A stretch of 23,028 nt of DNA from assembly GCA_031285115.1 (NCBI GenBank), contig JAITWU010000203.1:1-23028 (forward strand), read 5' to 3'. The position numbers and the translations under genes are program-made. Below are positions 172-16,799 of the stretch, piece after piece; within the stretch, counting starts at the first letter, position 1; every line of letters begins with the position of its first letter. A model generated the notes under the pieces. That model did not search any database, was not told where the DNA came from, and saw only the letters and a program-made list of their open reading frames with translations. This DNA is from Azonexus sp. (lineage in GTDB: Bacteria; Pseudomonadota; Gammaproteobacteria; Burkholderiales; Rhodocyclaceae).

Positions 172-249
172 TCACTTGCGCCAGAAAGCGGGCGTCAGCA
201 CAACCAGCAGGGTGAAAATTTCGAGACGCCCGAGCAGCATCGGCTCTAG
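172..249 (-). pseudogene. trkH: C-terminal remnant of TrkH potassium transporter
   Basis: The minus strand reads EPMLLGRLEIFTLL followed by VVLTPAFWRK and a TGA stop at 172-174. From memory this is the characteristic carboxyl end of TrkH, the membrane subunit of the Trk potassium uptake system (last helix ending in TPAFWRK or TPAFWR). Upstream (right), the reading frame runs into the 3' end of the exonuclease gene and the TrkH similarity stops at about 245, so only about 25 codons remain of a protein of roughly 480 residues. There is no start or ribosome binding site, and it should not be functional. It marks an old rearrangement or deletion junction, or an assembly join. The family assignment rests on a short but distinctive stretch. 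Confidence 0.6.
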
Positions 250-899
250 CCCACCCGCCCCAACAAACTGCTGGCGCGGGATTCGGCGATGAGGGTGGCG
301 GCGGTGTCAAATCCTTTACTGGTGGCTTTGGCGAGTGTCATTTGCAACAGACGGGCGAGCAGCAGGGTGTTTTCCATGGCGTCGCGGCGACCGGCGCCGG
401 GGTTGAGGCTGAGTTTTTCCAGCCAGTAATCGAGCGGTTGCACAGCGTCGCCCCGCTTGCCGAAGAGAATCGGCAAGAGCCAGGCGAGGTCGATCCATTG
501 CGGCTGGAAATTGACGCCGAGATATTCCTGACAGGCGGGCTGGAGAAGGCCGCTGACATAAGGCGCGTGATACGTGACCAGCGGCGCTTTGGCGGCGTAA
601 CCGAGAAAGGCGAGGAGCTTTTCTGCAACCGCGCCATCGGCAAAATCGGCGTAGAACGCGTCGACAGGCGTCATCCGGCCCTGATGGACGGCCACTGCGG
701 CGATGCCGCTCATGTGCTTATCCGCCGCCTCGCCGCTGGCGGCAATGTCGACTACCAGATAACGGGTCTGAAAATGCCCGGCTTCCAGTGAGGGGGGCTT
801 CTTTTCGCGCCAGGCGGCGAGCGCGGCCTGGGCGGCGGCGGGCAGTTGTTCCGGGGCCGAATTGCCGAAGAGCATTTTTTTGATGTCGAACATGCTCAT
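246..899 (-). CDS. Degenerate DnaQ-fold 3'-5' exonuclease-like protein
   Basis: This 217-aa protein has the layout of the DnaQ/DEDDh exonuclease domain found beside DUF294 proteins. Motif I is at residues 48-55 (LVVDIAAS), motif II at about 110-119 (YHAPYVSGLL) and motif III at about 171-182 (RRDAMENTLLLA). Only Asp51 of the usual acidic set remains: the expected Glu of DxE is Ala53, the motif II Asp is Val115, the motif III His is Arg172 and the last Asp is Asn177. Length and fold signals are otherwise normal, and the ORF is open. I infer a catalytically dead paralogue used for binding or regulation. The start ATG overlaps the upstream DUF294 stop in an ATGA (896-899), showing translational coupling. 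A second Met three codons in is possible. Confidence 0.8.
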   Translation of the reverse strand: MSMFDIKKMLFGNSAPEQLPAAAQAALAAWREKKPPSLEAGHFQTRYLVVDIAASGEAADKHMSGIAAVAVHQGRMTPVDAFYADFADGAVAEKLLAFLGYAAKAPLVTYHAPYVSGLLQPACQEYLGVNFQPQWIDLAWLLPILFGKRGDAVQPLDYWLEKLSLNPGAGRRDAMENTLLLARLLQMTLAKATSKGFDTAATLIAESRASSLLGRVG

Positions 900-2839
900 T
901 GCACCTGATAGTCGAGTTTCAGGCGCGACTGGAGTTTTCGCGCCTGACGGAAGGATTCTTTGAGAATGCGGCGGTCGAGTTCGTTGAGTTTTTCAGGATC
1001 AATCAGGTTGTCGCCCTGCCGCCCCGGCTCGCCTTCGAGGTACTGGTGTTGCAGGCGCAGCAACTGGATGAAGTTGAGGCCGTCGAGCATGGCGTTGATA
1101 CCCCCGGCCAGCGCCGGCAGGCGCTGCGAAGCCTGGCGCAGGCGTTGCTGGGTATTGGTGGCGGCAACGCCGGAAGCCAGCGCGTAAATGCGGGCGACGT
1201 CGACAAAAATGCGCGAGCCGTATTTTTTCAGGTCGATCTTGCCCGGATGACCGGCTTCGAGATCGGTGAGGAAATCGCGGATTTTGCCGAGCGGCGGGCT
1301 GACATCGAGGGCATTGCGGGCCATTGCCTGCAAAAAGAGGGGCGTCGCCGCCGCCTGGTCGAGCAGATGACGGCGCATGGCCTCCGCCAGTTCACCCCTG
1401 CCCCACAGCGGGCGAAAGTCGAAAAAGATGCTGGCGTTCAAGAGGGCGGTCGGCACGGGTTTTCTCACCCATTCGCTGAACTGCGTCCGCCACTCATCGA
1501 GGGTCAGACACCATTCCGGGTTGCTGGCCATGATATTGCCCTTGCACAGCGGAAAGCCGATGGCGTCGAGGCCGTTGTTCACGTCTTGGGCAAAAGCCAG
1601 AAAACGCGCCTTGAGCGCGGCTTTATCTTCGCCCGGCGGCGCTGTGAAAACGATGCCGTTATCCTGATCGGTGCTGAAAGTCTGCTCATCGCGCCCTTCC
1701 GAGCCGAAGGCGAGCCACGCCCAGTCGATGCCGACAAAGCTGTGATGTTCGAGATTGAGCGAGATGACGCGCCGCGTCAGCGCGTCATTCAAGGTCGAGA
1801 TGAATTGCGTCAACTGTTCAGCGCCAATGCCTTGGGCCAGCATATTGAAGGCCAGTTGGCGCACATCCGCCGCCGACTGGCGGAGCGCCGCGACATCGGG
1901 GGCTACTTCGATGGTCTGGCGAATCTGGCGCAAACCGACGCGCTGCAAGGCAAACAAATCGCGCTCAGAAACGATGCCGGAAAGCCGTCCGGCCAAGTCA
2001 GTGACCAGCACATGACGGATGCCGCGCGTCGCCATGCCGAGCATCGCGTCATAGGCCGTGGCGTGTTCGCCGAGCGCCAGCGGCGAGGGCGACATCGCCG
2101 CGCTGATCGGCGTATCGAGCGGCAAATTGGCGAGCACGACGCGGTCGAGCAGATCGCTGCGGGTAAAGATGCCAAGCGGTTTTTGTTCGGCGTCGCAGAT
2201 GACAATGGAGCCGACAGCGGCCCGCGACATGGCTTCGAGCGCCTCGCGCAACGGCGTTTCTGGCCGTGTCGCCAGCGGATTTCTGACGCCGATGCCGGAA
2301 AGCGGCGAATTGAGCGTCTGCTGCTCGCTCGCCTTCTGCGCGAACTGCTGCTGCAACTGCTGCCGCGACTGGTCGAGCAGGCTGGCGATGTACTGCGTGC
2401 AAAAGAGGTTCAATTCCGGGCTGCTCGCCATCAGGCTGAGAAAATCCTCGGCTGGCAGGCGGTAGCAGAAAGTATCTTCCAGCGCCGTGTAAACATTGGT
2501 CGTTGGCCGTCCCGCCGTCACCGAACCAATCGGGAAGCTCTCCCCGGCGCCCAGGGTGAAGATCGAATACTCCGTCACCACCACCTCGCCCGCCTGCCGC
2601 GCCTGCACCTTGCCGGATTCGATCAGGTAAAAGAAGCGAACCTTGCCCGCATCCGGCCCGACAATCTCGCTGCCCGCCGGGTAGAAGGTGATCTCCGCCT
2701 TATCGGCAAAGGCTTGCAGCGCCGCCGCCGCCATCTTGTCGAAGGGCGGGTGCTGGCGCAGAAAAGCCTGCGTATTGCCAGCCATCCGCCGCTGCCCCTC
2801 GGCGCGCAGGAGGTCGTGTTTTTCGTACTGTTCAGTCAT
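896..2839 (-). CDS. cNMP-binding/CBS/DUF294 nucleotidyltransferase-like protein
   Basis: This is a cytosolic 647-aa multidomain signalling protein. Domains in order are a cyclic-nucleotide-binding-like domain (about 33-150), two CBS domains (about 185-240 and 248-300), a DUF294 nucleotidyltransferase-like domain (about 325-460) with the signature GSEGRDEQ at 379-386 and TDQDN at 390-394, and the DUF294 C-terminal helical domain (about 490-640). The GS...DxD pattern matches GlnD-like nucleotidyltransferases, so metal-binding Asp391 and Asp393 are present. The substrate is unknown. Relatives sit next to exonuclease, actP and acs genes in proteobacteria, pointing to acetate or carbon-status signalling. 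A GGGAGA ribosome binding site lies about 10 nt before the ATG. The gap to marR upstream is 58 nt, so co-transcription is possible. Confidence 0.9.
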   Translation of the reverse strand: MTEQYEKHDLLRAEGQRRMAGNTQAFLRQHPPFDKMAAAALQAFADKAEITFYPAGSEIVGPDAGKVRFFYLIESGKVQARQAGEVVVTEYSIFTLGAGESFPIGSVTAGRPTTNVYTALEDTFCYRLPAEDFLSLMASSPELNLFCTQYIASLLDQSRQQLQQQFAQKASEQQTLNSPLSGIGVRNPLATRPETPLREALEAMSRAAVGSIVICDAEQKPLGIFTRSDLLDRVVLANLPLDTPISAAMSPSPLALGEHATAYDAMLGMATRGIRHVLVTDLAGRLSGIVSERDLFALQRVGLRQIRQTIEVAPDVAALRQSAADVRQLAFNMLAQGIGAEQLTQFISTLNDALTRRVISLNLEHHSFVGIDWAWLAFGSEGRDEQTFSTDQDNGIVFTAPPGEDKAALKARFLAFAQDVNNGLDAIGFPLCKGNIMASNPEWCLTLDEWRTQFSEWVRKPVPTALLNASIFFDFRPLWGRGELAEAMRRHLLDQAAATPLFLQAMARNALDVSPPLGKIRDFLTDLEAGHPGKIDLKKYGSRIFVDVARIYALASGVAATNTQQRLRQASQRLPALAGGINAMLDGLNFIQLLRLQHQYLEGEPGRQGDNLIDPEKLNELDRRILKESFRQARKLQSRLKLDYQVQ

Positions 2840-2897: not shown

Positions 2898-3359
2898 CTA
2901 ATCGCCTTTCCGCTCCCCCTCGGCAAACCGGCGCAGTAGGGTCTGGAAAAGATCGAATTCTTCGCGGCTGAAACCGCGCAGGTGCTGGTTGAGGCTCTCG
3001 GTGATGATATGCGGAATTTTTTGCGCCAGACGGTGGCCTTCTTCGGTCAGTTCGATGTCGACGACGCGGCGATCAGAGGCGTTGCGTTGGCGGGTGATGA
3101 GTTTTTTGTTTTCGAGCCGATCCAACATGCGCGTCATGGTGCTGGTGTCGACGTTGTGGCAGCGTGAAAGTTGAGCCGCCGTGGAGGCTTTGCCGTTGGC
3201 GAGCAAAACGAGCGGCCCCCATTGCAGCGAAGTCAGACCAAGATCGGCGACTTTTTCATCGACGGTGCGGTGGAAGGCTTGAACGCCTTGTTTCATAAGC
3301 GCGGCGACGGATTTTCCGACGGCATAGGTTTCACTGCTGTAAAAATTTTTCTGCGCCAT
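2898..3359 (-). CDS. MarR-family transcriptional regulator
   Basis: This 153-aa protein is of typical MarR length. It has a winged helix-turn-helix core at about residues 40-110, including the recognition-helix region NVDTSTMTRMLDRLENKKLI and the wing motif NASDRRVVDIELTEEG (Asp96-Arg97-Arg98). MarR proteins bind palindromic operators as dimers and usually release DNA on binding small phenolic or drug-like ligands. It is divergent from the RND pump across a 178-bp intergenic region containing palindromes, so it most likely represses the pump and itself. The inducer cannot be deduced. The downstream DUF294 gene is on the same strand 58 nt away and may be read through. Confidence 0.92.
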   Translation of the reverse strand: MAQKNFYSSETYAVGKSVAALMKQGVQAFHRTVDEKVADLGLTSLQWGPLVLLANGKASTAAQLSRCHNVDTSTMTRMLDRLENKKLITRQRNASDRRVVDIELTEEGHRLAQKIPHIITESLNQHLRGFSREEFDLFQTLLRRFAEGERKGD

Positions 3360-3406
3360 GAGTTCCGTACCGGGAAATTTTTTCCATCAATTGTGACATC
3401 GGCATT

Positions 3407-3438
3407 AGTATACTGCATATGCAACTATTGCCGTTGCA
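3407..3438. promoter_or_regulatory. Candidate marR/RND promoter-operator
   Basis: AGTATACT (3407-3414) is its own reverse complement, so a TATACT -10-like hexamer occurs on both strands. It is followed by TGCATATGCA (3414-3423) and an overlapping inverted repeat TGCAAC-N7-GTTGCA (3420-3425 and 3433-3438). Nested palindromes between divergent genes, one encoding MarR, are what a MarR operator looks like. No good -35 box is visible in either direction. Inference only. Confidence 0.45.
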
Positions 3439-3447
3439 ATCTACAGG

Positions 3448-3495
3448 GAACCTCTGCATCAAGCCCGTTTGCGGTCAGGCTTGATGCAGAGGTTC
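3448..3495. repeat. Perfect 18-bp inverted repeat in RND leader
   Basis: The arms gaacctctgcatcaagcc (3448-3465) and ggcttgatgcagaggttc (3478-3495) are perfectly complementary around a 12-nt loop. The element lies between the presumed promoter and the RND start codon, so the mRNA leader would form a very stable hairpin ending 42 nt before the ATG. No T-run follows on either strand, so it is not a standard terminator. It could be a miniature mobile-element relic or a 5'-UTR regulatory or stability element. No target-site duplication is visible. Confidence 0.75.
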
Positions 3496-3537
3496 TTTAA
3501 TGGGCGGCAAAAGTAGATCAACTGTGCTGGAAAAGCT

Positions 3538-6500: not shown

Positions 6501-6744
6501 CGTGCGCTTCCGCCCGGTGCTGATGACGGCGCTCGCCATGATTATCGGCATGACGCCGATGGCGCTGGGTCTGGGCGACGGCGGCGAGCAGAACGCGCCC
6601 CTGGGCCGCGCCGTGATCGGCGGCCTGATCTTCGCCACCATCGCCACCCTGCTCTTTGTGCCGGTGGTCTTCAGCATCGTCCATCGCCATTACAAAAAAC
6701 CTGAAATCGACCCTTTGCTCAACGGAGAAACCCATGCCATCTGA
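3538..6744 (+). CDS. RND-family multidrug/solute efflux permease
   Basis: This 1068-aa inner-membrane, proton-driven transporter has the duplicated RND plan. Each half has one transmembrane helix (about 10-30 in the first), a large periplasmic porter/docking domain, then a helix bundle (about 340-500 in the first half). The TM4 proton-relay acids are present (VDDATVTIEN, Asp402-Asp403). The position of AcrB Lys940 in TM10 is Ala960 (GVATANSVLVISFARE). I have seen this in a lineage of HAE-like pumps, so it is a subfamily trait rather than damage. The gene is divergent from marR and overlaps the adaptor gene by 11 nt. The order permease-then-adaptor is less usual than adaptor-permease-outer-membrane factor. 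Substrate unknown. A weak GGAAA site precedes the ATG. Confidence 0.93.
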   Translation: MQNIVKIALSRPYTFIVMSVLLLIMGVFSALRTSVDIFPDIPIPVIAVAWQYTGLPPDDMAGRITTLYERVLTTTVNDIEHIEANSYTGFGIVKIFFHPNVNIATANAQVTAISQTIVKQMPPGTTPPLILNYNASTVPILQVALSGKGLTEQALGDLGLNVVRTGLVTVQGAAIPFPFGGKQRQVQLDLDSHAMQARGLSGQDVANALAAQNLILPIGTQKIGSHEYTLSLNNAPSAIEELNNLPIKSVKGAMVYMRDVARVHDGNPPQTNIVHVDGDRSVLMSVLKNGETSTLDIVSGIKDKLKEMQPALPETLTVKPINDQSLFVRAAIKGVVAEGAIAAALTSLMILLFLGSWRSTVIIAISIPLSILGAIAMLAAVGETLNIMTLGGLALAVGILVDDATVTIENINWHLEQGKAVVPAILDGARQIVTPAFVSMLCICIVFVPMFLLEGVARFLFVPMALAVMFAMVTSFILSRTLVPTMAMYMLRPHKPHTDLHGNDEALPPSKNPLVRFQRGFEEKFERFRDGYRDILRLALANRRRFVIGFIGFVLLSSALIPFLGRNFFPSVDSGQILMHARVPIGTRIEETAERFAKIEEAIRQTIPPDQIESLVDNIGMPISSINLTYNNTGVIGSQDGDISIALKEGHPPTEDYVQTLRERLPRLFPGTAFSFPPADIVSQILNFGAPAPIDIQIRGSKMDENFTYANLLLEKIRRVPGVVDARIQQARTAPKFNINLDRNRAQDVGLTARDVTNSLVVSLAGSSQVAPTFWLNPANGVSYPIVMQTPQYQLDNLTALANLPIGNSASGRPPQTLGAIARFDRSMSNAVVSQYDIQTMVQIRASTQGRDLGAVSAEISKILKETAGETPKGAKVVMLGQVQTMNDSFSGLLFGLIGAIVLIYLLIVVNFQSWSDPFVIIMALPAALAGIVWMLFATYTPLSVPALTGAIMCMGVATANSVLVISFARERLAALGNATEAAIEAGFVRFRPVLMTALAMIIGMTPMALGLGDGGEQNAPLGRAVIGGLIFATIATLLFVPVVFSIVHRHYKKPEIDPLLNGETHAI

Positions 6745-7924
6745 TCACCCGCAAAACCAATCCCGCCGCGCCTTGCGCACCGGCGGTCTGGTCGCCATGA
6801 CGCTGGCGGCAGTGATCGTGGTCATCGGCATTGTGACGCGCGTCGGCGATGGTAAAAAGCTCGAAGCCTGGACGGAGGAACAAGCCCTGGCCAACGTCAG
6901 CGTGGTCACGCCGGGTGCAACCGATACGGCATCTTCCATCGACTTGCCAGCGCGTTTTGAGGCTTACATCCGCGCGCCGATCTATGCCCGCACCAGCGGC
7001 TATCTCAAAAAATGGTATGTCGACATCGGCGCCAAAGTACGCGCCGGACAGGTGCTGGCCGACCTCGAAACGCCGGATCTCGACCAGCAACTGCTGCAAG
7101 CCCGCGCCGACCTCGCTACCGCCAAGGCCAATGAGGCGCTGGCCAAGACGACTGCGGATCGCTGGACATCTCTCCTCGATTCAGGCTCGGGCGCAGTAGC
7201 GCCGCAGGAAGTAGACGAGAAAAAGGGCGATTACGCAGCCAAACAGGCCGTCGCCAAGGCGGCGCTTGCCAATGTTGATCGTCTCATCGCCACCAAGGGC
7301 TTCGCGCATCTGGTCGCGCCGTTCGACGGCGCCGTTACCGCCCGCAACACCGATGTCGGCGCACTCGTCAGCGAAGGCGGCGGCGCCAACAGTCCGGCGC
7401 TGTTTGAGGTTTCCGACACCCGCAAGCTGCGCCTGTTCGTCAACATCCCGCAGAACCATGCGTTCAGCATCAAGCCCGGCGTTACGACAGCGACCATCAC
7501 TGTGCCGGAACACCCTGGACAGACCTTCACGGCAACCGTCGAATCCAGCGCCCAAGCGGTTGATAGCGCCTCGAACTCGATGCTGGTGCAACTGATCGTA
7601 GACAACCGCAACAACCAGTTGCTGTCCGGTGGCTATGCCAATGTCAGCTTCAAACTGCCGAACGCAGTAACCGCCCTCAGCATTCCGTCGAGTGCGCTGA
7701 TTTTCAACAAGTCCGGTCTGCAAGTCGCAACAGTGGGCGATGGCAACAAGGTCAAGTTGAATCCCGTGACCATCGCCCGCGACCTGGGTCGAACCGTGGA
7801 AATCGGCAGCGGCTTGACGCCCGCCGATCAGGTCATCGAAAACCCGCCGGACGGCGTTGTCGATGGGCAAATGGTGCGTGTGGCCGAGAACGAGAAGAAA
7901 GAGCAGTCGGCGGCAAAACATTGA
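6734..7924 (+). CDS. RND periplasmic adaptor (membrane fusion protein)
   Basis: The HlyD/AcrA-type adaptor has 396 aa when started at ATG 6734, which has a GGAG site 6 nt upstream. A longer reading from 6656 lies inside the permease gene and lacks a site. An N-terminal helix at about 17-36 anchors it or acts as a signal. There is no lipobox Cys, so it is probably not a lipoprotein. Then come a lipoyl/barrel-sandwich half (YARTSGYLKKWYVDIGAKVRAG), an alpha-helical hairpin at about 115-180, a second lipoyl half and beta-barrel, and a membrane-proximal domain. It would connect the permease to an outer-membrane channel of the TolC type, which is not encoded here, so the partner must be supplied elsewhere. 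Confidence 0.92.
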   Translation: MPSDHPQNQSRRALRTGGLVAMTLAAVIVVIGIVTRVGDGKKLEAWTEEQALANVSVVTPGATDTASSIDLPARFEAYIRAPIYARTSGYLKKWYVDIGAKVRAGQVLADLETPDLDQQLLQARADLATAKANEALAKTTADRWTSLLDSGSGAVAPQEVDEKKGDYAAKQAVAKAALANVDRLIATKGFAHLVAPFDGAVTARNTDVGALVSEGGGANSPALFEVSDTRKLRLFVNIPQNHAFSIKPGVTTATITVPEHPGQTFTATVESSAQAVDSASNSMLVQLIVDNRNNQLLSGGYANVSFKLPNAVTALSIPSSALIFNKSGLQVATVGDGNKVKLNPVTIARDLGRTVEIGSGLTPADQVIENPPDGVVDGQMVRVAENEKKEQSAAKH

Positions 7925-7970
7925 ATCGCGCATGATCGGAGCGGGGTAGCCCACGTTTTCCCAAGTTTTC

Positions 7971-8006
7971 TGGACACCTCCTTATTTTTGTCATACATTT
8001 ATGACA
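7971..8006 (+). promoter_or_regulatory. Toxin-antitoxin promoter with overlapping operator
   Basis: TGGACA (7971-7976) and TACATT (7994-7999) are separated by 17 nt and match sigma-70 boxes at 5/6 and 4/6. The inverted repeat TGTCAT-N6-ATGACA (7989-7994 and 8001-8006) covers the -10 box. This fits negative autoregulation by the ribbon-helix-helix antitoxin encoded 23 nt downstream. Confidence 0.55.
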
Positions 8007-8028
8007 GAACTGGGAATTGGAATCAACC

Positions 8029-8346
8029 ATGTCCACCGCAAATGTAGCCGACGTTCGCATCAATGCCCGCCTCACCGGCGACGATGCCGCGCGTTTTCAG
8101 GAATTGCTCGACCACAGCGGCTTTTCCGCCTCCGAGTTGCTGCGCGCGGCCTTGCGCGAATATCACAGCAGACATAGCCAAACCCGGCGCAATCCGCTCG
8201 AATTGCTGGCGGGTTATATCGGCGCAGGCGAGGGGCCGGAAGATTTGTCAGTCAATTACAAGGCTTACCTGACCAAGGCGCTGGAAAACAAGCTGCCGCT
8301 GGCGGTGCATGAGCCGCCTTCGCCAACTTATGATTCTGGCCGATAG
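8029..8346 (+). CDS. Ribbon-helix-helix antitoxin (VapB-like)
   Basis: A 105-aa protein whose first ~45 residues fit a CopG/Arc ribbon-helix-helix DNA-binding domain: a beta strand ADVRINARL, helix A TGDDAARFQELLDHSG, and helix B SASELLRAALREYHSRH. The C-terminal half would wrap and neutralise the toxin. It starts at ATG 8029. An in-frame TTG four codons earlier is possible but less likely. The toxin gene overlaps its 3' end, as in type II toxin-antitoxin operons. The protein likely binds the inverted repeat at 7989-8006. The exact antitoxin family is not recognised. Confidence 0.75.
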   Translation: MSTANVADVRINARLTGDDAARFQELLDHSGFSASELLRAALREYHSRHSQTRRNPLELLAGYIGAGEGPEDLSVNYKAYLTKALENKLPLAVHEPPSPTYDSGR

Positions 8347-8755
8347 CGGCTTCTGGATTGCGCTCGGTAACAAGCGCGACCGCCATCACACAGTCGCCTG
8401 CGCCGCCGCCAAGCGTTGGGCGGGTGAAGGGTTTGTCAGCACCTGGCCGGTACTGACGGAGGTCACGCACTTGCTGACGGCGCGCATCGGTATCAATCAG
8501 GCGCTGGATTTCATGGACGCCATCGCCCAAGGCGCGTGCGAAGTGCCGCCGCCACCGGAAAACGCGCTGGCTCACGCCGCCGCACTGATGCGCCGCTATC
8601 GTGATTTACCGATGGATCTGGCCGATGCCTCGCTGGTTATCCTGGCCGAAGAACTGAACGAAGGCCGCATCCTTTCGACTGACTTGCGCGATTTCAGCGG
8701 CTATCGCTGGAAAAACAGGCAGCCTTTTGTCAACCTGCTGCTGCCGGACTGGTGA
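8330..8755 (+). CDS. PIN-domain ribonuclease toxin (VapC-like)
   Basis: A 141-aa PIN-domain protein, the VapC-type endoribonuclease that cleaves specific RNAs such as tRNAs and arrests growth. Conserved acids are visible: Asp5 in MILADSGFW, the Glu of LTEVTHLL, the Asp pair in DLADASLVILAEEL, and STDLRDF near the C-terminus, giving a complete metal-binding set. I chose ATG 8330 because PIN proteins begin directly with this first strand. ATG 8309, adding MSRLRQL, is equally open. Either start lies inside the antitoxin gene (8029-8346), so translation is coupled. The gene converges with the exonuclease fusion, with 43 bp between the stops. Confidence 0.85.
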   Translation: MILADSGFWIALGNKRDRHHTVACAAAKRWAGEGFVSTWPVLTEVTHLLTARIGINQALDFMDAIAQGACEVPPPPENALAHAAALMRRYRDLPMDLADASLVILAEELNEGRILSTDLRDFSGYRWKNRQPFVNLLLPDW

Positions 8756-8798: not shown

Positions 8799-10958
8799 TC
8801 AATACTTGATGCGGGCGAAGTAGGTTTTTTCCGAGGCTTCCAGCGCCTGGCGGACGGTGGTGATGCCTTTTTCTTCGAGCAGCGGCACGAGTTTCAAAAA
8901 GACTTCGCCGGTTGCCAGCGCGTCTTCCAGCGCGTTGTGGCGGGTTTCGATCTGTAGCCCGAGGCGTTCAAGAATGGCTTCGAGTTTGTGCGATTCCTGA
9001 TTGGGATGCACAACTGCCGAGAGCAGCAGGGTGTCGAGCACGGGCTGGGCGAATTGCAGCCCTGTGCGCTCTTCCTTCAATTGCAAAAAACGCATGTCGA
9101 AGGCGGCGTTGTGGGCGATCAGCACGGTGTCTTCGCAGAATTCATGGAAGGCGGGCAGCACCACGTCGATATTGGGTTTACCGCGCACCATATCTTCGGT
9201 AATGCCGTGAATCGGGATGGATTCAGGCTTGAGCGGGATTTCAGGATCGACGATCTGGTCGAATATTTCCTGATGCAAGAGGCGGTTGTTGACGATGCGG
9301 GCGGCGCCGATCTGGATGATTTCGTCGCCTTTCGAGGGTTCCAGCCCGGTCGTTTCGGTATCAAAAACCGTGTAGGTGAGTTCTGCGAGTTTGCGGTCGA
9401 GGTCGATGGATTTGTCGGCGAAGTTGAAGAGGTCGAAATCGTAGTATTCCGGCCGGCCGGCGCTGCGGCTGCGGTCTTCCGCCTCGGCCCCGATTTCCGG
9501 CGTCGCCACCGGCAGAACGAAGCGGAAAAAGGCGCGGTGCGCGGCTTTTTCGCGCTGATACCAGATTTCGCCGCCGTGGCGGTCGATGACGTCGCGCAAG
9601 GATAGCGGCGAGTTTTCGCCGCCGACGTTCATGGCGTCCATTTCCCAAGTGTAGAAGGTCTCGGACGACATCGCGGGGCCAGCCCAGATGAGGTCGAGAT
9701 AGGCGAGTTTGCCCGCCGAGGTGAGGCGAAAGCGCAGTTCGCGCGGCGCGTAGTGATCCTGCAATTTGCTGGCGAGATAGGTGAGCGCCAAAACCAGCGA
9801 AAAACTGTCGGCCTTGATCCACAGGGCGTCGTCTTGTTCCTCGGTTTTCGAGGGCAGATCCAGTTTGTCGCCGATGCGGCGCTGGGCGGCGGCGATGAGG
9901 TCGATGGCCAGCACGTCTTCGAGCGGCCAGCGGGTTTTGAGCGAATCAGAGAAGCCAGCCATCGTCCGGTCGAGACTTTGGCTCATTTTGTCGGCCTCGT
10001 CGGCGACGACTTTGACGAAACGCTCGCGCAGTTCCGTTTCCATATCCGGGTAGTCGATCAGGTTGCCGACGGCGGCGCGGATGTTGCCGAGCGCCGCCCG
10101 GCTGCCTTCGGTCAGCGCCAGCAGGGCCTGATCGCGGCGGCCTTCCTGCTCGATGCTGTGAGTAATGTTGTCGACCGTCAGGACGTAGCCCGAGAGCGCG
10201 GCTTCGCCTTCGCCGCCGGAAGCCCGCACCGGCACCATCTGCACGCGCAGCAACTGACCGCCGCGCGTGGTGGTGACGAAATTGGCGAGCGCCGCCTTGC
10301 CCGCCGCGAGGCGCTGACGGATGACTTCGAGCGCGTGTTCGATCTGGCTTTTTTCGAGAATGGAGTGAATCGAGCGCCCCAGCCCGATCAGCGCCCCGCC
10401 CGAAACCGAGGTCGGCCCTTGCGTCAGCGCCTTGAATTGCAGGCGGGCGCGGTTGTTGTAAAGAAGGATGCGGCCATCGAGATTGCACACCACGACCGCT
10501 TGCGCCAGTTCCGACATGAGGGCGGCGAGACGGTTTTTTTCTTCCTCGACCGAGGCTTTGGCGCGGGCAATCTGGCTTTCGACATCATCCATCAGCGCAT
10601 CGCGCTGGGCGGCGAGATCGTTGGCGGCGGCGGCCAGTTGCCGGACTTCCGGCGGGCCATCGAGGCTGACGCGGAAATCGCGGTTGGCGTTGAGCATGAG
10701 CCGCAGCGTTTCGGCCATGCGCAGCAAGCCTTCGATGTATTGCTTGAACAATTTGTGCAAGACGACAACGCCAATGGCGAAGCCGAACAGGGTCATCACC
10801 GTGCCGGTCGGCAGGCGGGAAGTGAGCAGCCGGATCAGCATGTCGCGTTCATCGGCTTTCATGTCCAGCCAGACAAGCAGCGAGCTGATGATAAACGGCC
10901 CGGTCATCAACAGGCCGAGAACGGCGACGGCAATCAAAAATCGCTGTTTTGCCTTCAT
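8799..10958 (-). CDS. Membrane PAS/pseudo-histidine-kinase fused to DEDDh exonuclease
   Basis: A 719-aa protein. ATG 10958 has GAGGAGG 6 nt upstream, whereas a TTG six codons earlier would put that site inside the gene. Domains: two transmembrane helices (about 8-31 and 51-69), a HAMP-like linker (70-120), a coiled coil, PAS (about 145-265), a kinase-like region (275-485), and a C-terminal DnaQ-type 3'-5' exonuclease (527-695). The exonuclease residues are all present: Asp533, Glu535 (DTETTG), Asp621 (HNAAFD), His674 and Asp679 (RHNALED). The kinase part looks dead: no phospho-acceptor His where HELRTP is expected (about 285-290), no N-box Asn, and WAGPAMSSE replaces DNGPG, although an RHGGEIW segment survives. 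It is the last gene of the sensor operon, 33 nt after the receiver. Confidence 0.88.
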   Translation of the reverse strand: MKAKQRFLIAVAVLGLLMTGPFIISSLLVWLDMKADERDMLIRLLTSRLPTGTVMTLFGFAIGVVVLHKLFKQYIEGLLRMAETLRLMLNANRDFRVSLDGPPEVRQLAAAANDLAAQRDALMDDVESQIARAKASVEEEKNRLAALMSELAQAVVVCNLDGRILLYNNRARLQFKALTQGPTSVSGGALIGLGRSIHSILEKSQIEHALEVIRQRLAAGKAALANFVTTTRGGQLLRVQMVPVRASGGEGEAALSGYVLTVDNITHSIEQEGRRDQALLALTEGSRAALGNIRAAVGNLIDYPDMETELRERFVKVVADEADKMSQSLDRTMAGFSDSLKTRWPLEDVLAIDLIAAAQRRIGDKLDLPSKTEEQDDALWIKADSFSLVLALTYLASKLQDHYAPRELRFRLTSAGKLAYLDLIWAGPAMSSETFYTWEMDAMNVGGENSPLSLRDVIDRHGGEIWYQREKAAHRAFFRFVLPVATPEIGAEAEDRSRSAGRPEYYDFDLFNFADKSIDLDRKLAELTYTVFDTETTGLEPSKGDEIIQIGAARIVNNRLLHQEIFDQIVDPEIPLKPESIPIHGITEDMVRGKPNIDVVLPAFHEFCEDTVLIAHNAAFDMRFLQLKEERTGLQFAQPVLDTLLLSAVVHPNQESHKLEAILERLGLQIETRHNALEDALATGEVFLKLVPLLEEKGITTVRQALEASEKTYFARIKY

Positions 10959-10991
10959 GGCGTGCCTCCTCGGCAAAAAAGCCCGGTCGCC

Positions 10992-11363
10992 TCAGACGAC
11001 GCCGAGCAGATGCTTGACCTTGGCGATCAATTCCTTGGTTGAAAAAGGTTTGGTCATGTAGGCGTCGGCGCCAATCGCCAAGCCCTTGGCCACTTCAGTG
11101 TCGCGGCCCTTGGCGGTGAGCATGAGAATCAGGAGGCCGCCGTGCTGCGGATCGGCGCGCAAAATCTCGCACACTTCGTAGCCGGATTTTTTCGGCATCA
11201 TCACATCGAGCAGCACCAGATCAGGATTGAAGGCCGCGACCTGGGCCAGCGCCTCGTCGCCGTCGCCAGCAAGGGCAATTTCAAAACCTTCTTTTTTGAG
11301 CAGGAATTCGAGCGAGATAACGATATTCGGTTCGTCATCGACAATCAGAATTTTGTGCGCCAT
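10992..11363 (-). CDS. Single-domain response regulator (CheY-like receiver)
   Basis: A 123-aa receiver domain without an output domain. The acidic pocket Asp9-Asp10, phospho-acceptor Asp53 (LVLLDVMMP), Thr83 (LTAKG) and Lys105 (TKPFS) are all in place. The start at ATG 11363 has GGAGGA about 10 nt upstream. A longer in-frame reading overlaps the kinase gene and lacks support. It is co-directional with the SLC5 histidine kinase (17 nt gap) and the exonuclease fusion, so it is presumably the kinase's phospho-acceptor. With no DNA-binding domain it must act by protein contact or pass phosphate onward. In Vibrio CrbS/R systems the regulator has a DNA-binding domain, so this differs. Confidence 0.93.
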   Translation of the reverse strand: MAHKILIVDDEPNIVISLEFLLKKEGFEIALAGDGDEALAQVAAFNPDLVLLDVMMPKKSGYEVCEILRADPQHGGLLILMLTAKGRDTEVAKGLAIGADAYMTKPFSTKELIAKVKHLLGVV

Positions 11364-11380
11364 CAGTTGAGTCTCCTCCG

Positions 11381-14113
11381 TTATTTTTCGGATTGTTCTT
11401 CCGGCGCCAGCAAGGGCACCGTAAAAAAGAAGCATGCGCCTTTGCCGGGCTGGCTTTCAACACTGAGGTTACCACCAAAATACTCAACAATCTGCCGACT
11501 GATAGGCAAGCCCAGGCCGGTGCCCTGTGGTTTGTCGGTCATGGTGTTGCCGCCCTGGCGGAATTTTTCAAAAACGACGCTGCATTCCTCCGCCGTCAGG
11601 CCAGGGCCGTTGTCAGCCACGGCCACCCGCGCCAGCCCGTCGGCGGCGCTGACCGTGACAGAAACCCGGCCAGCGCCGCCAGCGACGAATTTGACGGCAT
11701 TTGACAAGAGGTTGATTATCACCTGCATCAGCCGGTCGCGGTCGGCCAGCACCAGCGGGCCGTGTTCCGGGACGGTGGAATCGAGCATCACATTTTTTTC
11801 GCGGAACAGTTGACAGAGCGAATCCATCGCCTCACGCGCCAGTTCGCCCAGATCAAGCTCACGGGTTTCCCATTCGGCGCGGCCCGAATCGAGCTTGGCC
11901 ATGTCGAGAATCTGGTTGATGAGACGGGTCAGGCGCTCGGCTTCATTGACGATGATGTTCAAAAAACGGGTGCGGTCAGCCGCTTCGATGTCCGGGTCCT
12001 CGTGCAGCATTTCGGACAACGCCCGGATCGAAGTCAGGGGCGTGCGCAGTTCGTGCGTCACGGTCGAAATGAAATCGTCCTTCATTTTGTCCAGCTCGCG
12101 CAGGCGGTCGTTGGCCGAACGCAATTCCGCTGTCGCCGCTTCCAGCTCCTGCTGCTTGGCTTCAAGCTCCCGGCTGTAGGCGCGGACTTGCGTTGCTTCG
12201 TCGAGAATATCGAGCACTTCTTCGAGGCCGAGATTATCTTCTTCCGCCACCGAGGCAACCATGACGCGGGCGCTCGCCGAACCGATGGCCCCGGCGAGTT
12301 CGGCTTCGGCAAAATGGACGAAAGCGGCATCCGCTGGCAGTTCCCGCCAGTCGGCCAGACCGCGCGCCTGGGCGTGGGCGGCGAGTTGCTGATTGGCGCG
12401 GGCGGCGCCCAAAAAGCGTTCGAGCAATTCGACCAGCGCGGTGGACGAGGCTTTGCCGCGCCACAGCCGGGCCTGCTGGCTATTGGCGTTGGCGTGGCTG
12501 TGGCGGGAAATATCGACAAAACGCTCGGCCTGGCTCGCCGCCACGGCATCCGGCTTGGTCAGGAGCGAAACGGCAAGGTAAGCGGCGGTATTGGCGAGGA
12601 GGCTCCACCACAGGCAGTGCGAAATTTCGTCGAGGCCGGAAAGACCAAACAGCGCCTGGGGGTGCAGCCACGACCAGCCGAACAATCCCTGTTCGACGAA
12701 TTCCAGACCAATCCAGCCGGATTTGGCGAAAGATGGTAGCAGCAGCGTGTACAGCCAGACGGTGAAACCAGCGCACAAACCGGCGACCGCCCCGGCCCGC
12801 GTGCCCTGCTTCCAGTACATGCCGCCGAACAGCGCCGGGGCGAACTGGGCGACAGCGGCCTGCGAAATCAGCCCGATGCCGACCAGGGCGTAAGCCTCGC
12901 CCGCAGCGCGAAAGTAGATGTAGCCGAGAAAAAGGATGAGCGCGATGGCCGCCCGCCGGATGCCGATCAAGAGGCCCGACAAATCCTGACGGCGGTCGGC
13001 CTGGAACCACTTGGAGCGCAACAGCCAGGGCATCGCCAGATCGTTGCAGACCATCGTAGACAGGGCGATGGTCTCGACAATAATCATCCCGGTCGCCGCC
13101 GACAGGCCGCCGATAAAGGCCAGCAAGGCCAGCGCATTGGCGCCGTGGGCGAGCGGCAGGGTGAGGACGAAGGTGTCGGGATTGACTGCCTGGCCATTGA
13201 ACCCGAGAAGGCCGCCAATCGCCAGCGGCAAGACGAACAGGTTGATGAGCAGCAAATAGAGCGGAAAGAGCCAGACGGCGCGCCGGTAATGCGATTCATC
13301 GACATTTTCGACGACGATAATCTGAAACTGGCGCGGCAACAGAATGATCGCCAGACCGGAAAGCAGCAGCAAGGCTGTCCAGGCGCCCGCGCGGGCCGGA
13401 TCGGGGCGGAGCAGTTTTGCCAGTTCCGGGCTGGCCGCCGCTTTGGCGAAGAGGTCGGAAAAACCGCCAAAAATGCCATAGGTGACGAACAGGCCGACGG
13501 CGACAAAAGCGACGAGCTTGACCACCGATTCAACGGCAATGGCGGCGACCATGCCTTCGTGGCGCTCGGTGGCGTCGAGATGGCGGGTGCCGAAGAGGAT
13601 AGTAAACAGCGCCAGAACGATGACGATGAGAAAAGCCGAGTCGAGGCCCCAGAACAGCTCGGCATGGCCGGAACCGGCAAACAGCGTATCGAGGCTCGCG
13701 GCAATGGCTTTCAATTGCAGGGCGATGTAAGGCACGATGCCGATCACCGCAATGACGGTGACGAGACCGGCCAGCAACTGGCTCTTGCCGTAGCGCGAAG
13801 CAATGAAATCGGCAATCGACGTGATGCGGTAGGTTTTGCTGATGCGGATCATCTTGATGATGACGCCCGCCGCCAGCAACATCAGCGTCGGCCCGAGATA
13901 GGTCGTGAGAAACGACAGGCCGCCGGTCGTCGCCCGGCCAACGCTGCCGAAAAAAGTCCACGAAGTGCAATAGACGGCGAGCGACAGGGCATAGACATTG
14001 GCGCTGATAATCGAACGACCACTGTCCGCCCGCGCATCGCCAAAGCGGGCGACGGCAAACAGCAGCGCGAAATAGGCCGCCGAGAGCAGGGCGACAAACC
14101 AGCCGGAAAGCAC
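11381..14113 (-). CDS. SLC5 symporter-like sensor histidine kinase (CbrA/CrbS type)
   Basis: A 910-aa inner-membrane protein. The first ~500 residues form a sodium:solute symporter-like (SLC5) bundle of about 13 helices. A STAC-like domain follows (about 545-640; AIGSASARVMVASVAEEDNLGLEEVLDILDEA in pieces), then a coiled coil, HisKA with His687 (THELRTPL), and HATPase with Asn805 (N-box), DNGPG at 834-838 and GTGLGL at 864-869, so the kinase appears active. Relatives CbrA and CrbS sense carbon status or import; CrbS controls acs. There is no PAS domain, unlike CbrA. It starts at GTG 14113, directly after the TAA of the 65-aa gene (no gap), so translation is coupled. I do not assign cbrA because the partner regulator differs. 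Confidence 0.92.
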   Translation of the reverse strand: MLSGWFVALLSAAYFALLFAVARFGDARADSGRSIISANVYALSLAVYCTSWTFFGSVGRATTGGLSFLTTYLGPTLMLLAAGVIIKMIRISKTYRITSIADFIASRYGKSQLLAGLVTVIAVIGIVPYIALQLKAIAASLDTLFAGSGHAELFWGLDSAFLIVIVLALFTILFGTRHLDATERHEGMVAAIAVESVVKLVAFVAVGLFVTYGIFGGFSDLFAKAAASPELAKLLRPDPARAGAWTALLLLSGLAIILLPRQFQIIVVENVDESHYRRAVWLFPLYLLLINLFVLPLAIGGLLGFNGQAVNPDTFVLTLPLAHGANALALLAFIGGLSAATGMIIVETIALSTMVCNDLAMPWLLRSKWFQADRRQDLSGLLIGIRRAAIALILFLGYIYFRAAGEAYALVGIGLISQAAVAQFAPALFGGMYWKQGTRAGAVAGLCAGFTVWLYTLLLPSFAKSGWIGLEFVEQGLFGWSWLHPQALFGLSGLDEISHCLWWSLLANTAAYLAVSLLTKPDAVAASQAERFVDISRHSHANANSQQARLWRGKASSTALVELLERFLGAARANQQLAAHAQARGLADWRELPADAAFVHFAEAELAGAIGSASARVMVASVAEEDNLGLEEVLDILDEATQVRAYSRELEAKQQELEAATAELRSANDRLRELDKMKDDFISTVTHELRTPLTSIRALSEMLHEDPDIEAADRTRFLNIIVNEAERLTRLINQILDMAKLDSGRAEWETRELDLGELAREAMDSLCQLFREKNVMLDSTVPEHGPLVLADRDRLMQVIINLLSNAVKFVAGGAGRVSVTVSAADGLARVAVADNGPGLTAEECSVVFEKFRQGGNTMTDKPQGTGLGLPISRQIVEYFGGNLSVESQPGKGACFFFTVPLLAPEEQSEK

Positions 14114-14311
14114 TTACTTCATGCCTCGCGGTTCGGCGACCAGCGCCGCCAGCGCAATCAGCCCGGCCCAGACGCCGAACAGATAAAGATAACTCGCCGG
14201 AATGCCGCCGAGATTGCCTTCCGGCAAGGCGAGCAGCGGGTAAGTCAGCAACGGGACGCCAAAGAGACTGAGCGCCGTCAGTTTTTGCCGGACCGGATTA
14301 GCGCGTTTCAT
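14114..14311 (-). CDS. Small two-helix membrane protein upstream of SLC5 kinase
   Basis: A 65-aa protein starting at ATG 14311 with GGAG 6 nt upstream. An in-frame GTG precedes it by one codon. Two hydrophobic segments (about 12-28, LTALSLFGVPLLTYPLLAL, and 35-58, GIPASYLYLFGVWAGLIAL) are separated by a short loop and followed by a charged tail EPRGMK. It abuts the kinase start exactly (TAA then GTG). Small membrane ORFs upstream of SLC5-type kinases and transporters are known (for example cbrX before cbrA, and DUF485/YjcH before ActP). It may be an accessory subunit of the symporter-like sensor. I cannot assign a family by eye. Confidence 0.8.
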   Translation of the reverse strand: MKRANPVRQKLTALSLFGVPLLTYPLLALPEGNLGGIPASYLYLFGVWAGLIALAALVAEPRGMK

Positions 14312-14420
14312 CACCTACTCCACAACCACTCCTGTAAAAAACGACGGCTGGCGCCAAGGCCAGCCGTCGGGGGATGCAGTCTGATGCGACCGCACGGGAG
14401 GCCACCTTGTGGATGGCCAT
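14298..14420 (-). CDS. Putative 40-codon leader ORF before sensor operon
   Basis: On the minus strand an ATG at 14420 follows an excellent AAGGAGGAG site with an ACA spacer. It opens a 40-codon frame (starting MAIHKVASRAVASD and ending GVGDETR) that stops with TAA at 14298-14300, 14 nt inside the 65-aa gene. The frame reads straight through the hairpin and T-run at 14335-14369. No amino acid is strikingly repeated as in classical biosynthetic leader peptides. Ala, Arg and Val dominate. Likely roles are a leader peptide whose translation melts the terminator or couples to the next gene. It could also be chance, but the ribosome binding site is stronger than those of several neighbouring genes. 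Confidence 0.45.
   Translation of the reverse strand: MAIHKVASRAVASDCIPRRLALAPAVVFYRSGCGVGDETR
14335..14369 (-). terminator. Intrinsic terminator / candidate attenuator
   Basis: A perfect 11-bp stem CGACGGCTGGC / GCCAGCCGTCG with a 6-nt loop (14342-14369) is followed on the minus strand by six T residues. It would end acs transcripts. Its T-run ends only about 24 nt before the start codon of the 65-aa gene, leaving little room for a separate promoter. It may therefore act as an attenuator for the sensor operon. Confidence 0.8.
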
Positions 14421-14448
14421 TGTCTCCTCCTTGCCCTTTTTAATCGAC

Positions 14449-14476
14449 GGAAGCGGCGTGGCAAGTCACCGCTTCC
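14449..14476. repeat. Hairpin after acs stop
   Basis: The inverted repeat ggaagcgg-N12-ccgcttcc begins 9 nt past the acs stop on the minus strand. There is no immediate T-run, so it is more likely a 3'-end stabilising hairpin or part of the leader fold than a terminator. Confidence 0.4.
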
Positions 14477-14485
14477 TGTTAATCA

Positions 14486-16450
14486 TCAACCCTTCAACTG
14501 CTCCAGAATGGCCGGGTTTTCCAGTGTCGAAATATCCTGCGTCAGTTCCTCGCCCTTGGCGAGACCGCGCAGCAGACGGCGCATGATCTTGCCGGAGCGG
14601 GTCTTGGGCAGGTTGTCGCCAAAGCGGATGTCCTTCGGCTTGGCGATCGGCCCGATTTCCTTGCCGACCCAATCCTGCAATTCCTTGATGAGTTTCTTGG
14701 TCGCCTCGGCATCGGTCGGGCGCTGGCCCTTCAAGACGACGAAGGCGACGATGGCTTCACCCGTCAGATCATCGGGACGGCCAACGACGGCGGCTTCGGC
14801 AACCATCGGGTTGGCGACCAGCGCCGATTCGATTTCCATCGTCCCCATGCGGTGGCCGGAAACGTTGAGCACGTCGTCGATACGGCCAGTGATGGTGAAG
14901 TAGCCGGTCTTGGCGTCGCGAATCGCGCCGTCGCCCGCGAGATAGAGCTTGCCCTGGAAATCCGCCGGGAAGTAGGACTTCACATAGCGGTCGGGATCGT
15001 TCCAGATGGTGCGGATCATCGACGGCCACGGCTTCTTGCAGACGAGGATGCCGCCCTGGCCCCACGGCAGTTCGGCGCCGGTTTCATCAACGACGGCAAA
15101 CTGGATGCCGGGGAAAGGCAGGGTGCACGAACCCGGCACCAGCGGCGTTGCGCCCGGCAGCGGCGTAATCATGTGGCCGCCGGTTTCGGTCTGCCAGAAG
15201 GTATCAACCACCGGGCAGCGGCTGCCGCCAATGTTTTCGTAATACCACATCCAGGCCGCCGGGTTGATCGGCTCGCCAACCGAACCGAGGATGCGCAGCG
15301 ACTTCAGGTTGTAATTCTTCGGATGTACGGCAGGCGTCGAATCAGCAGCCTTGATGAGGGAGCGGATCGCCGTCGGCGCGGTGTAGAAAACGCTGACTTT
15401 GTGATCCTGGATCATCTTCCAGAAACGCCCGGCGTCGGGGTAGGTCGGCACGCCTTCAAAGACGACTTCGGTCACGCCGCAGGCGAGCGGGCCATAGGTG
15501 ATGTAAGTGTGGCCGGTGACCCAGCCGATGTCCGCCGTGCACCAGAAAATATCGCTGTCCTTGATGTCGAAAGCGTATTTCATGGTCAGGATGGCGTGCA
15601 GCAGGTAGCCGCCGGTCGAATGCTGGACGCCCTTCGGCTTGCCGGTCGAACCGGAGGTGTAGAGGAGGAACAGCGGATGCTCGGCATCGACCCATTCCGG
15701 CTCGCAGGTTTCCGGCTGCCCGGCGAGGCCGTCGTGCAGCCACATGTCGCGGCCAGCGACCATGTTCACTTCAGCGCCGGTGCGCTTGAAGACGATGACG
15801 TTTTTGACCGACTCGCAGCCGCCCAGCGAAAACGCTTCGTCGGCAATCGGCTTCAAGGGAATCGCCTTGCCGCCCCGGAACTGGCCGTCGGAGGTGATGA
15901 GCATGACGGCCCCGGCGTCGTTGATCCGGTCGCGCAGCGACTGCGAGGAGAAGCCGCCGAACACCACCGAATGGGTCGCGCCGATGCGGGCGCAAGCCTG
16001 CATGGCGACGATGCCCTCAATGGTCATCGGCAGGTAGATGACGACGCGGTCGCCCTTTTTGACCCCCCGCGCTTTGAGGAGGTTGGCCATTTTGCAGACC
16101 CTGACCAGCAGTTCCTTGTAAGTAACCTTTGTCACTTCGCCGTTGTCGGCTTCAAAAATGATGGCAACCTTGTCGCCCTTGCCAGCTTCGACCTGACGGT
16201 CGAGGCAGTTGTACGAAACATTGAGCTTGCCATCGGCAAACCACTTGTAGAACGGGGCATTGGACTCATCGAGAGTCTGGGTGAAAGGCTGCTTCCAGGC
16301 GACCATTTCGCGGGCGCGCTTGGCCCAGAAACCCGCATAGTCGGCCTCAGCTTCCGCGCACAGCGCCTTGTAGGCGTCCATCCCGGAAACCGCCGCATTT
16401 TTGACGATTTCGTCAGACGGATAAAAGAACTGCACGGACTCATTCGACAT
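14486..16450 (-). CDS. acs: Acetyl-CoA synthetase (AMP-forming)
   Basis: A 654-aa enzyme, matching the ~652 aa of Acs. It activates acetate with ATP to acetyl-AMP and then acetyl-CoA in the cytosol, the high-affinity acetate scavenging route. Visible signatures are the adenylation P-loop [12 protein letters not shown], the WWYY-type acetate-pocket segment around [12 protein letters not shown], and the C-terminal [11 protein letters not shown] with Lys621, the residue acetylated and inactivated in Salmonella Acs (Lys609). ATG 16450 has GAGGAGA 7 nt upstream; a longer in-frame reading to 16537 has no site. No strong sigma-70 promoter is visible upstream, which fits activator-dependent control. 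Its position directly before the SLC5 kinase operon supports acetate-linked regulation. Confidence 0.96.
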
Positions 16451-16799
16451 AGTTATTCTCCTCTGCGTACTTCGCATTTGATATTGGGACAGGCAATCGG
16501 TCGCGGGACCAGGTTTTGATGTAATCCAGCCGAACACACCGAGGAGTGTCTCCCCCCTCTCTGTGCAAGACGGGCATTACATAGTGATATTCTTACAAAG
16601 CCCTTACGAAAGCACGCTGCGGCGCAACAAAAGTCATAAAAGTATGCGCTGGGCGACATGCTAAAATTTTCGTTCCCAATTTATTTCATTCCGTTTTCAG
16701 ATCAGACGAACAGGCGAAGACCAGGCGGGCGACCGCGCCGTCGCCGAGGCCAGAAGCCGCTGCCGTCATCGTTTGATCGAAAAATGGAAGGACGCCGAC
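16451..16799. promoter_or_regulatory. acs / yqhA divergent intergenic region
   Basis: These 349 bp separate two divergent genes and must hold both promoters. For acs, a direct repeat CTTAC-N6-CTTAC (16592-16596 and 16603-16607, 11-nt period) lies about 145 nt upstream of the start and could be an activator site. Nearby -10-like sequences are poor. For yqhA, a TAAAAT box lies at 16661-16666 with no recognisable -35. The stretch 16680-16799 is GC-rich leader with no convincing gene. Confidence 0.4.

Follow-up and report, generated by a model that had tools for sequence, protein, structure and literature searches.

A membrane-anchored protein that joins a dead histidine kinase to an intact exonuclease is encoded beside an SLC5-type histidine kinase and a lone receiver in Azonexus sp. 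We consider it somewhat probable, from the comparative sequence evidence, that this fusion works as a reversed kinase of the DivL kind, in which the receiver would dock on the pseudo-DHp domain and gate the exonuclease, so that the output of the two-component system would be a nuclease. Two-component systems mostly end in transcription, and a path from receiver to dead kinase to exonuclease would be a new effector branch. In that case, what a nutrient signal switches may be a nuclease and not a gene. The locus lies in the window, which is the whole stretch of 23,028 nucleotides that was analysed, and the genome it belongs to is a draft of 2.6 Mb in 414 contigs that is 83% complete.

Kinase, receiver and fusion are encoded by three co-directional genes on the minus strand, separated by gaps of 17 and 33 b (Table 1). 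The start of the fusion was placed at the ATG at 10958, which stands behind a GGAGG box and gives a protein of 719 aa. The residue numbers of an earlier, sequence-only reading of this DNA agree with this start. In close relatives, the gene immediately following the fusion is that of DUF294 (the two adjoin in L087 and L141), whereas they are separated in the window.

Table 1. Features of the window, with the positions, strand and basis of each assignment.
Feature	Position	Strand	Basis
Degenerate DEDDh-fold protein (P0001), adjoining the DUF294 gene	246..899	-	
DUF294 nucleotidyltransferase with CBS and cNMP-binding domains	896..2839	-	
Membrane pseudo-histidine-kinase/DEDDh exonuclease fusion, 719 aa	8799..10958	-	ORF and domain matches, AlphaFold model
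Fusion: predicted DEDDh 3'-5' exonuclease domain, residues 529-699, PolC/DnaQ-like, five catalytic residues intact	8862..9374	-	
Fusion: degenerate CA (ATPase-like) domain, residues 347-484, Trp425 in place of the G1 Asp	9507..9920	-	
Fusion: pseudo-DHp, residues 266-341, Glu284 at the phospho-acceptor His position; proposed receiver docking site	9936..10163	-	
Fusion: PAS domain, residues 154-264	10167..10499	-	PAS_4 match below curated cut-off; fold present in model
Fusion: two long N-terminal helices taken as transmembrane, residues 3-74, leading into a HAMP-like coiled region	10737..10952	-	AlphaFold helices
Single-domain receiver, 123 aa	10992..11363 (counted from ATG)	-	Response_reg 2.3e-28 and conserved residues
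SLC5-type histidine kinase, active-site motifs intact	11381..14113	-	HisKA and HATPase_c; transporter part by structure-chain match
Intergenic region ahead of the kinase gene, putative promoter	14114..14485	-	Position only
acs, acetate--CoA ligase, upstream neighbour	14486..16537	-	NCBIfam NF001208 and TIGR02188 over cut-off

The overall fold of the fusion was examined with profiles and a structure model. The family profile matched VicK (4i5s) across profile positions 49-490, and hhalign of the profile of its kinase-like part against the core of the neighbouring kinase gave a probability of 99.3 and an E of 1.4e-20 over 213 columns at 21% identity. The AlphaFold model had a mean pLDDT of 86 but a pTM of 0.41; a Foldseek search with it returned VicK 4i5s (3.7e-16), a PolC exonuclease (1.7e-13) and NifL (9qq6, 7.1e-11). 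From sequence and model together, the N-terminus is probably a membrane anchor followed by a HAMP region. In a viral structure library, the matches were viral histidine kinases or DEDDh/DnaQ proteins, and none of the 50 matches listed was named as both.

The active site of the kinase-like part was then compared in 215 aligned homologues of the fusion, 207 of them distinct at 98.5% identity. Residue 284, which stands where a kinase has its phospho-acceptor His, was E in 147, D in 36, Q in 13, R in 7, A in 3, V in 2, T in 2, L in 2 and M in 1, with one gap and a single H; that is, E, D or Q replaced the His in 196/215. The G1 Asp position was Trp (W425) in 215/215, Asn was absent from the five commonest residues of every column in the N-box stretch, and the motifs of the N, G1 and G2 stretches were lost. 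Judged by these residues, the kinase-like part of the fusion lacks what the active site of an active histidine kinase requires, namely the phospho-acceptor His and the G1 Asp. The sequence-only reading had claimed the loss of His, N and G1 and had proposed structure prediction as a check for a normal active site; AlphaFold, Foldseek and the alignment bear it out, placing a degenerate active site in a correctly folded kinase module.

The nuclease has fared differently. The five DEDDh residues reported in that reading, D533, E535, D621, H674 and D679, are all present in the fusion, and all five were kept in 212/215 aligned homologues and in 79/79 of a smaller alignment. The domain is therefore predicted to be a 3'-5' exonuclease of the DEDDh class. 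The three homologues with a decayed nuclease (L078-L080) come from genomes in which neither the kinase nor the receiver was found. As to a role in anti-phage defence, PADLOC matched the fusion with a generic DEDDh model and two PDC-S48 models, all within the nuclease domain.

Both neighbours look functional, as the sequence-only reading had described them: a co-directional, active-looking SLC5 kinase and a receiver without output. The phospho-acceptor His of the kinase was kept in 98/98, and its N, G1 and G2 motifs were also kept. In the receiver, Asp53 was kept in 169/171 and Lys105 in 171/171; with a phospho-Asp, a length of 123 aa and no output domain, it is a single-domain receiver. A Pfam search of the kinase at E<=1 returned no SSF domain, and its SLC5 homology comes solely from the match of residues 8-464 to a chain of known structure that bears the name 'histidine kinase' (10ed_A, E 9e-76) and may be CbrA. 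On that match, the neighbouring kinase has the transporter domain fused to an intact-motif kinase that characterises the SLC5/STAC kinases CbrA, CrbS and RpuS. RetS was also among its sequence matches.

To see how widely this arrangement is shared, relatives of the fusion were collected at several ranks. Full-length relatives were present in 34/35 other genomes of the same genus. At E<=1e-60 relatives were found in 141/199 genomes of the family (own genome counted, some matches partial), and at E<=1e-40 in 23/369 genomes of the class (own genome counted); among the 22 other class genomes with a match, three matched outside the nuclease only and two by the nuclease only. A scan of named genomes gave at least 414 relatives among 591 stretches, of which the best 80 were kept and 78 of these used. 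By title, the best 80 of at least 414 included Beta-, Gamma-, Alpha- and Deltaproteobacteria, together with a single MAG from Nitrospirota. Among the matches listed, the closest named relatives were a Rhodocyclaceae bacterium MAG (83% identity), a Dechloromonas aromatica MAG (79%) and the isolate Azonexus hydrophilus (77%).

The gene neighbourhood was conserved, and the lack of conservation that would have refuted the earlier reading was not seen. The receiver lay directly upstream of the fusion in 158/192 distinct loci (near-duplicates removed, more than 700 b upstream in view), in 54 of 60 fetched family loci, where the kinase was present in 51, and in 60/70 of the 1.5-kb loci. In the 78 named loci from the best 80 of at least 414, the receiver was directly upstream in 53/71 with more than 700 b upstream, an SLC5 kinase stood somewhere in 46/71, DUF294 in 49/78 and acs in 18/78. 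Where an adjacent receiver and an SLC5 kinase were both in view (96 loci), the kinase was upstream in 89 and downstream in 7, on the same strand throughout. Six named genomes in which no SLC5 kinase was found (L117, L122, L127, L132, L140 and L151) carry a plain sodium:solute symporter at the locus (SSF 6/6 over the Pfam cut-off). The DUF294 gene lay within about 5 kb of the fusion in 33/54 loci, above the chance expectation from a background of 21 matches in about 41 Mb, the summed length of 9 genomes selected because they carry the fusion, and it adjoins the fusion also in G245, where the receiver was not found. These results show that both the kinase/receiver pair and the DUF294 protein accompany the fusion steadily, and that acs is a companion in some clades only, the clade of the window among them. 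For the acetate link that the earlier reading had drawn, the support is weaker and limited to certain clades: acs lies upstream in the window, and it was present in 17/57 named loci that have more than 6.5 kb upstream in view (from the best 80 of at least 414).

We next determined which kinase the pseudokinase resembles. Against the 23 HisKA kinases of its own genome, the pseudo-DHp profile scored the neighbouring kinase at 39.1 bits and the next at 15.4, whereas the CA profile ranked the neighbour sixth at 5.2 bits and showed no preference. A pseudo-DHp profile built from 19 distant loci alone also placed the neighbouring kinase ahead (29.7 vs 12.0 bits for the next). When each of 98 loci (94 distinct) was tested separately with a panel of up to 21 other kinases, all from the window's genome, the DHp of the locus's own kinase beat the other panel kinases in 97/98 and the CA in 29/98. 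This similarity, specific to DHp and not shared by CA, indicates that the part of the kinase that meets the receiver was kept neighbour-like and the ATP-binding part was not. Covariation between receiver and pseudo-DHp (MI-APC, 98 triples, Neff 61) did not exceed the background of the receiver against other domains. The same was true of the positive control, receiver against active kinase, and covariation was therefore dropped as evidence.

Lineages that have the fusion and miss its partners form a natural experiment, and in them mainly the docking domain has decayed. We searched 17 genomes in which the fusion has no adjacent receiver for an SLC5 kinase (E<=1e-120) and a receiver (E<=1e-28), and found a kinase match in 11, a receiver match in 7 and neither in six. 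Clear copies of both partners were present in four (G628, G629, G633 and G647), and seven with weak, partial or single partner matches were set apart as a weak group. Among 31 further genomes, 19 had both kinase and receiver and 12 had neither, with no mixed case; in all these counts absence was scored partly in drafts or MAGs, where assembly may omit genes. As a measure of kinase-likeness, each pseudo-DHp was scored against a profile built from the DHp of the active kinase. The median was 27.8 bits where the receiver is adjacent (162 distinct) and 29.9 bits where it is elsewhere or unknown (20 genomes, 19 scored), and it was 5.3 bits where neither partner was found (18 genomes, 17 scored) and 1.7 bits in the 7 weak genomes; L136 and L151 had no DHp score. 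Receiver-adjacent loci with an exonuclease identity below 0.66 still scored 25.5 bits (52 loci). Identity to the window in the neither-partner group was 0.63 for the exonuclease, 0.55 for PAS, 0.42 for CA and 0.26 for DHp, against 0.69, 0.63, 0.57 and 0.55 in the receiver-adjacent group. Without the partners it is mainly DHp that decays, while nuclease and PAS hold and CA drifts somewhat too.

The same association was followed on a quick tree of the PAS and exonuclease columns, with 111 loci and the window. Both traits were available for 103 loci, of which 83 had partners and at least 15 bits, 15 had neither, 3 had partners and a low score, and 2 had a high score without partners. The 2 high scorers are L069 (30.3 bits) and L070 (16.9), from genomes 90 and 95% complete in which neither partner was found; the opposite exceptions, L134, L115 and L120, have an adjacent receiver and score 2.7, 14.0 and 8.3 bits. 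Partner presence changes 7 times on the tree. In 5 supported independent pairs, the difference went in the expected direction in 4.2 and in the opposite direction in 0.0, while 0.8 showed none (the median p of the sign test was 0.125, and with so few pairs this test cannot reach 0.05); the cut of 15 bits used here was chosen after the scores were seen, and the 7 weak-match loci and L151 were left out. That the fusion occurs where both receiver and kinase are missing means that it can do without the receiver. The coupling of receiver and pseudokinase suggested in the sequence-only reading gains support from the neighbour-likeness of DHp and from its loss where partners were not found, as far as comparison of sequences can lend it.

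The pseudokinase might instead have the active SLC5 kinase as its partner, say in a DHp heterodimer of the kind that RetS forms with GacS, and tune that kinase, with the nuclease tethered for localisation. DHp is also the dimerisation domain, and the similarity of the pseudo-DHp to the DHp of the neighbouring kinase would fit such pairing. So would the 31 genomes in which kinase and receiver are found or missed together, because of which the loss experiment cannot separate the two. We examined which positions of helix 1 change when the partners are missing, numbering the His position as 0. The contacts of EnvZ were placed by counting from His243, which we take to be its phospho-acceptor. In the available parts of the two source papers, the coevolving residues of EnvZ are T250, R251, A255, E257 and M258, with L254 (PMC2991266), and the receiver-facing residues of helix 1 in DivL, modelled or mutated, stand 3, 7, 11, 12 and 15 after Tyr550 (PMC4211667). 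Together they define a contact set of seven, +3, +7, +8, +11, +12, +14 and +15.

The positions most changed in helix 1 were +8, +15, +1, +14, 0, -7, +12 and +11; past helix 1, the consensus was lost at +20, +21, +27, +29, +30 and +33, and core positions such as -2, +6, +9, +16 and +45 were kept. The change averaged 0.43 in the contact set vs 0.23 in the rest of helix 1 (one-sided p 0.018), and 0.41 vs 0.21 in a divergence-matched set (p 0.036), p values that are indicative only because the set was fixed after the pattern was seen and the rows are related. Two members of the contact set, +3 and +7, showed little change, and four positions outside it, 0, +1, -7 and +13, changed as well. The hydrophobic core of helix 1 was largely kept in the neither-partner group, with a mean divergence of 0.13 over six positions. 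A constraint at a dimer interface predicts the opposite, namely that the core and not the contact set would change more. The helix 1 pattern thus fits docking of the receiver better than it fits a heterodimer with the kinase, and we regard the latter as unlikely. Comparison across the homologues supports the conservation of a docking face of the DivL type.

Docking by itself would also suit a sink: by sequestering or draining the receiver, the pseudokinase would control the kinase pathway, and the exonuclease would lie outside its control. The same docking evidence fits, but with the exonuclease residues in 212/215 homologues and the fusion itself conserved, it is unlikely that the nuclease is carried along without a function, and we consider the sink quite improbable. 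Descent alone, with the fusion arising from a copy of the adjacent kinase and co-transcribed with it, and a constitutive nuclease that takes its own PAS input and has no contact with the receiver, is given an equally low probability: the operon spacing, the DHp similarity that shared ancestry would yield and the DUF294 gene beside the fusion in G245 agree with it, but it fails to explain why DHp and not CA is neighbour-like and why the decay falls mainly on DHp when the partners are missing.

Returning to receiver docking with gating of the nuclease, we propose the following mechanism. The SLC5-type kinase, given its intact motifs and its adjacency to the receiver gene, would autophosphorylate and hand the phosphate to the lone receiver. 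The receiver, probably in its phosphorylated form, would dock on the DHp of the neighbouring pseudokinase, as the comparative evidence suggests. Because the pseudo-DHp is not phosphorylatable on His, it would read the receiver in the manner in which DivL reads DivK~P. The docking signal and the fusion's own PAS input would then travel by way of the degenerate CA domain to the DEDDh 3'-5' exonuclease at the C-terminus, presumably at the inner membrane, and alter its activity. Its role might perhaps be the tuning of small organic acid use at the nucleic acid level, possibly after transcription, with acetate as the acid in the clade of the window. In its broadest form, the proposal is an output class of two-component systems found across Proteobacteria. 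Once phosphorylated, the lone receiver would directly switch a nuclease in the membrane by way of a pseudokinase that arose as a copy of the receiver's own sensor kinase, and nutrients would thereby gate the breakdown of RNA or DNA ends at the inner membrane; this we put forward tentatively, as a possibility that falls somewhat short of an expectation. A conserved module of this kind would account for the lone receiver beside SLC5 kinases, and it would suggest where to search for what exonuclease genes do in acetate and pyruvate regulons, a role so far unexplained.

Several known systems share parts of this design. NifL (9qq6) and RetS are kinase-fold regulators that act by protein contact, and to our knowledge neither carries a nuclease. 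The DEDDh exonuclease domains of PolC, DnaQ and DinG act in replication or repair, whereas that of the fusion is tied to a membrane signalling module. A literature search, which covered few subscription papers, gave no description of the fusion or the trio among the titles and abstracts listed, and the word 'exonuclease' is absent from the main text, as far as available, of the SLC5/STAC kinase papers PMC9100948, PMC5715377 and PMC13022988.

CrbS/CrbR is the closer comparison for the sensor. According to the accessible sections of PMC9927547, it is the same system as MxtR/ErdR, with PP_0354/PP_0353 as targets, and its SLC5/STAC kinase controls acs, much as an SLC5-type kinase adjoins acs here. 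The same sections describe, in the MxtR/ErdR regulon of Pseudomonas putida, an operon of a CBS-domain gene and a putative RNase_T-type exonuclease; loss of that separate exonuclease, PP_0353, impairs growth on pyruvate, and the authors speculate on mRNA decay (PMC9927547). There the output is a transcription regulator and the exonuclease is a separate protein (PMC9927547), whereas in the window the receiver lacks an output domain and the nuclease sits on the pseudokinase. Whereas CrbR is a DNA-binding response regulator, the gene adjoining the kinase here encodes the lone receiver of 123 aa. As stand-ins for PP_0353 we used two exonucleases beside DUF294 in one Pseudomonas genome; the fusion's exonuclease profile scored them at 61 and 77 bits and DnaQ of the same genome at 116. 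Identity of the fusion nuclease with PP_0353 was rejected on these scores, and since its likely relatives are not close to the fusion nuclease, PP_0353 is a parallel and not an orthologue.

The logic of the proposal comes closest to DivL/DivK of Caulobacter. DivL acts on its target CckA, the control of which is its output, whereas the output of the fusion would be the fused DEDDh exonuclease. DivL likewise has a kinase fold with the phospho-acceptor His replaced, and its DHp docking face reads a single-domain receiver, so that information runs from receiver to kinase fold, as we propose for the fusion (PMC4211667, available text). In DivL the His is replaced by Tyr and the N, G1, F and G2 motifs are kept, whereas the fusion has Glu in most homologues and has lost its ATP-binding motifs (PMC4211667, available text). 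The parts of the module are thus of known kinds and its logic resembles that of DivL; what is new is their combination with a nuclease as output.

A 217-aa protein is encoded beside the DUF294 gene, which specifies a nucleotidyltransferase with CBS and cNMP-binding domains. As shown in the table, its fold was assigned from hhalign and Foldseek. The DEDDh fold was recognized by hhalign (94.5%, E 8.1e-8), and a model of the protein (pLDDT 67) matched DinG in Foldseek at 2.8e-5. In the alignment, only the first of the five catalytic residues was retained, and three orthologues looked similar. This protein is probably a pseudo-nuclease.

Features on the DUF294 side of the fusion gene
Feature	Position	Strand	Remark
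Degenerate DEDDh-fold protein, 217 aa	246-899	-	Adjoins DUF294; hhalign, Foldseek
MarR regulator, RND pump, HlyD adaptor, PIN/ribbon-helix-helix pair	2898-8755		Separates fusion from DUF294

The fusion, DUF294 and pseudo-nuclease genes adjoin one another in two relatives (L087 and L141). Therefore, the stretch at 2898-8755 looks like an insertion.

The nuclease of the fusion had decayed at three loci (L078, L079 and L080), and a search of their genomes found neither the receiver nor the kinase. In genome G024, a 369-aa frame (C1:1344890-1345933) had the exonuclease attached directly to the membrane part, and PAS and pseudokinase matches were absent from this frame. In L123 (6885-12160), which comes from a record of Piscinibacter aquaticus, both the fusion and the kinase were split into several frames each; this is a broken or poorly sequenced copy. 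A plain sodium:solute symporter (SSF) gene was present at fusion loci L117, L122, L127, L132, L140 and L151, and also at L103, with SSF above the cut-off in all seven. No SLC5 kinase match was found in the genomes of the first six.

In a Pseudomonas genome, both of the strong DUF294 genes had a DEDDh exonuclease, encoded separately, as the next gene (L199/L195 and L206/L189). Thus, the joint occurrence of DUF294 and DEDDh extends more widely.
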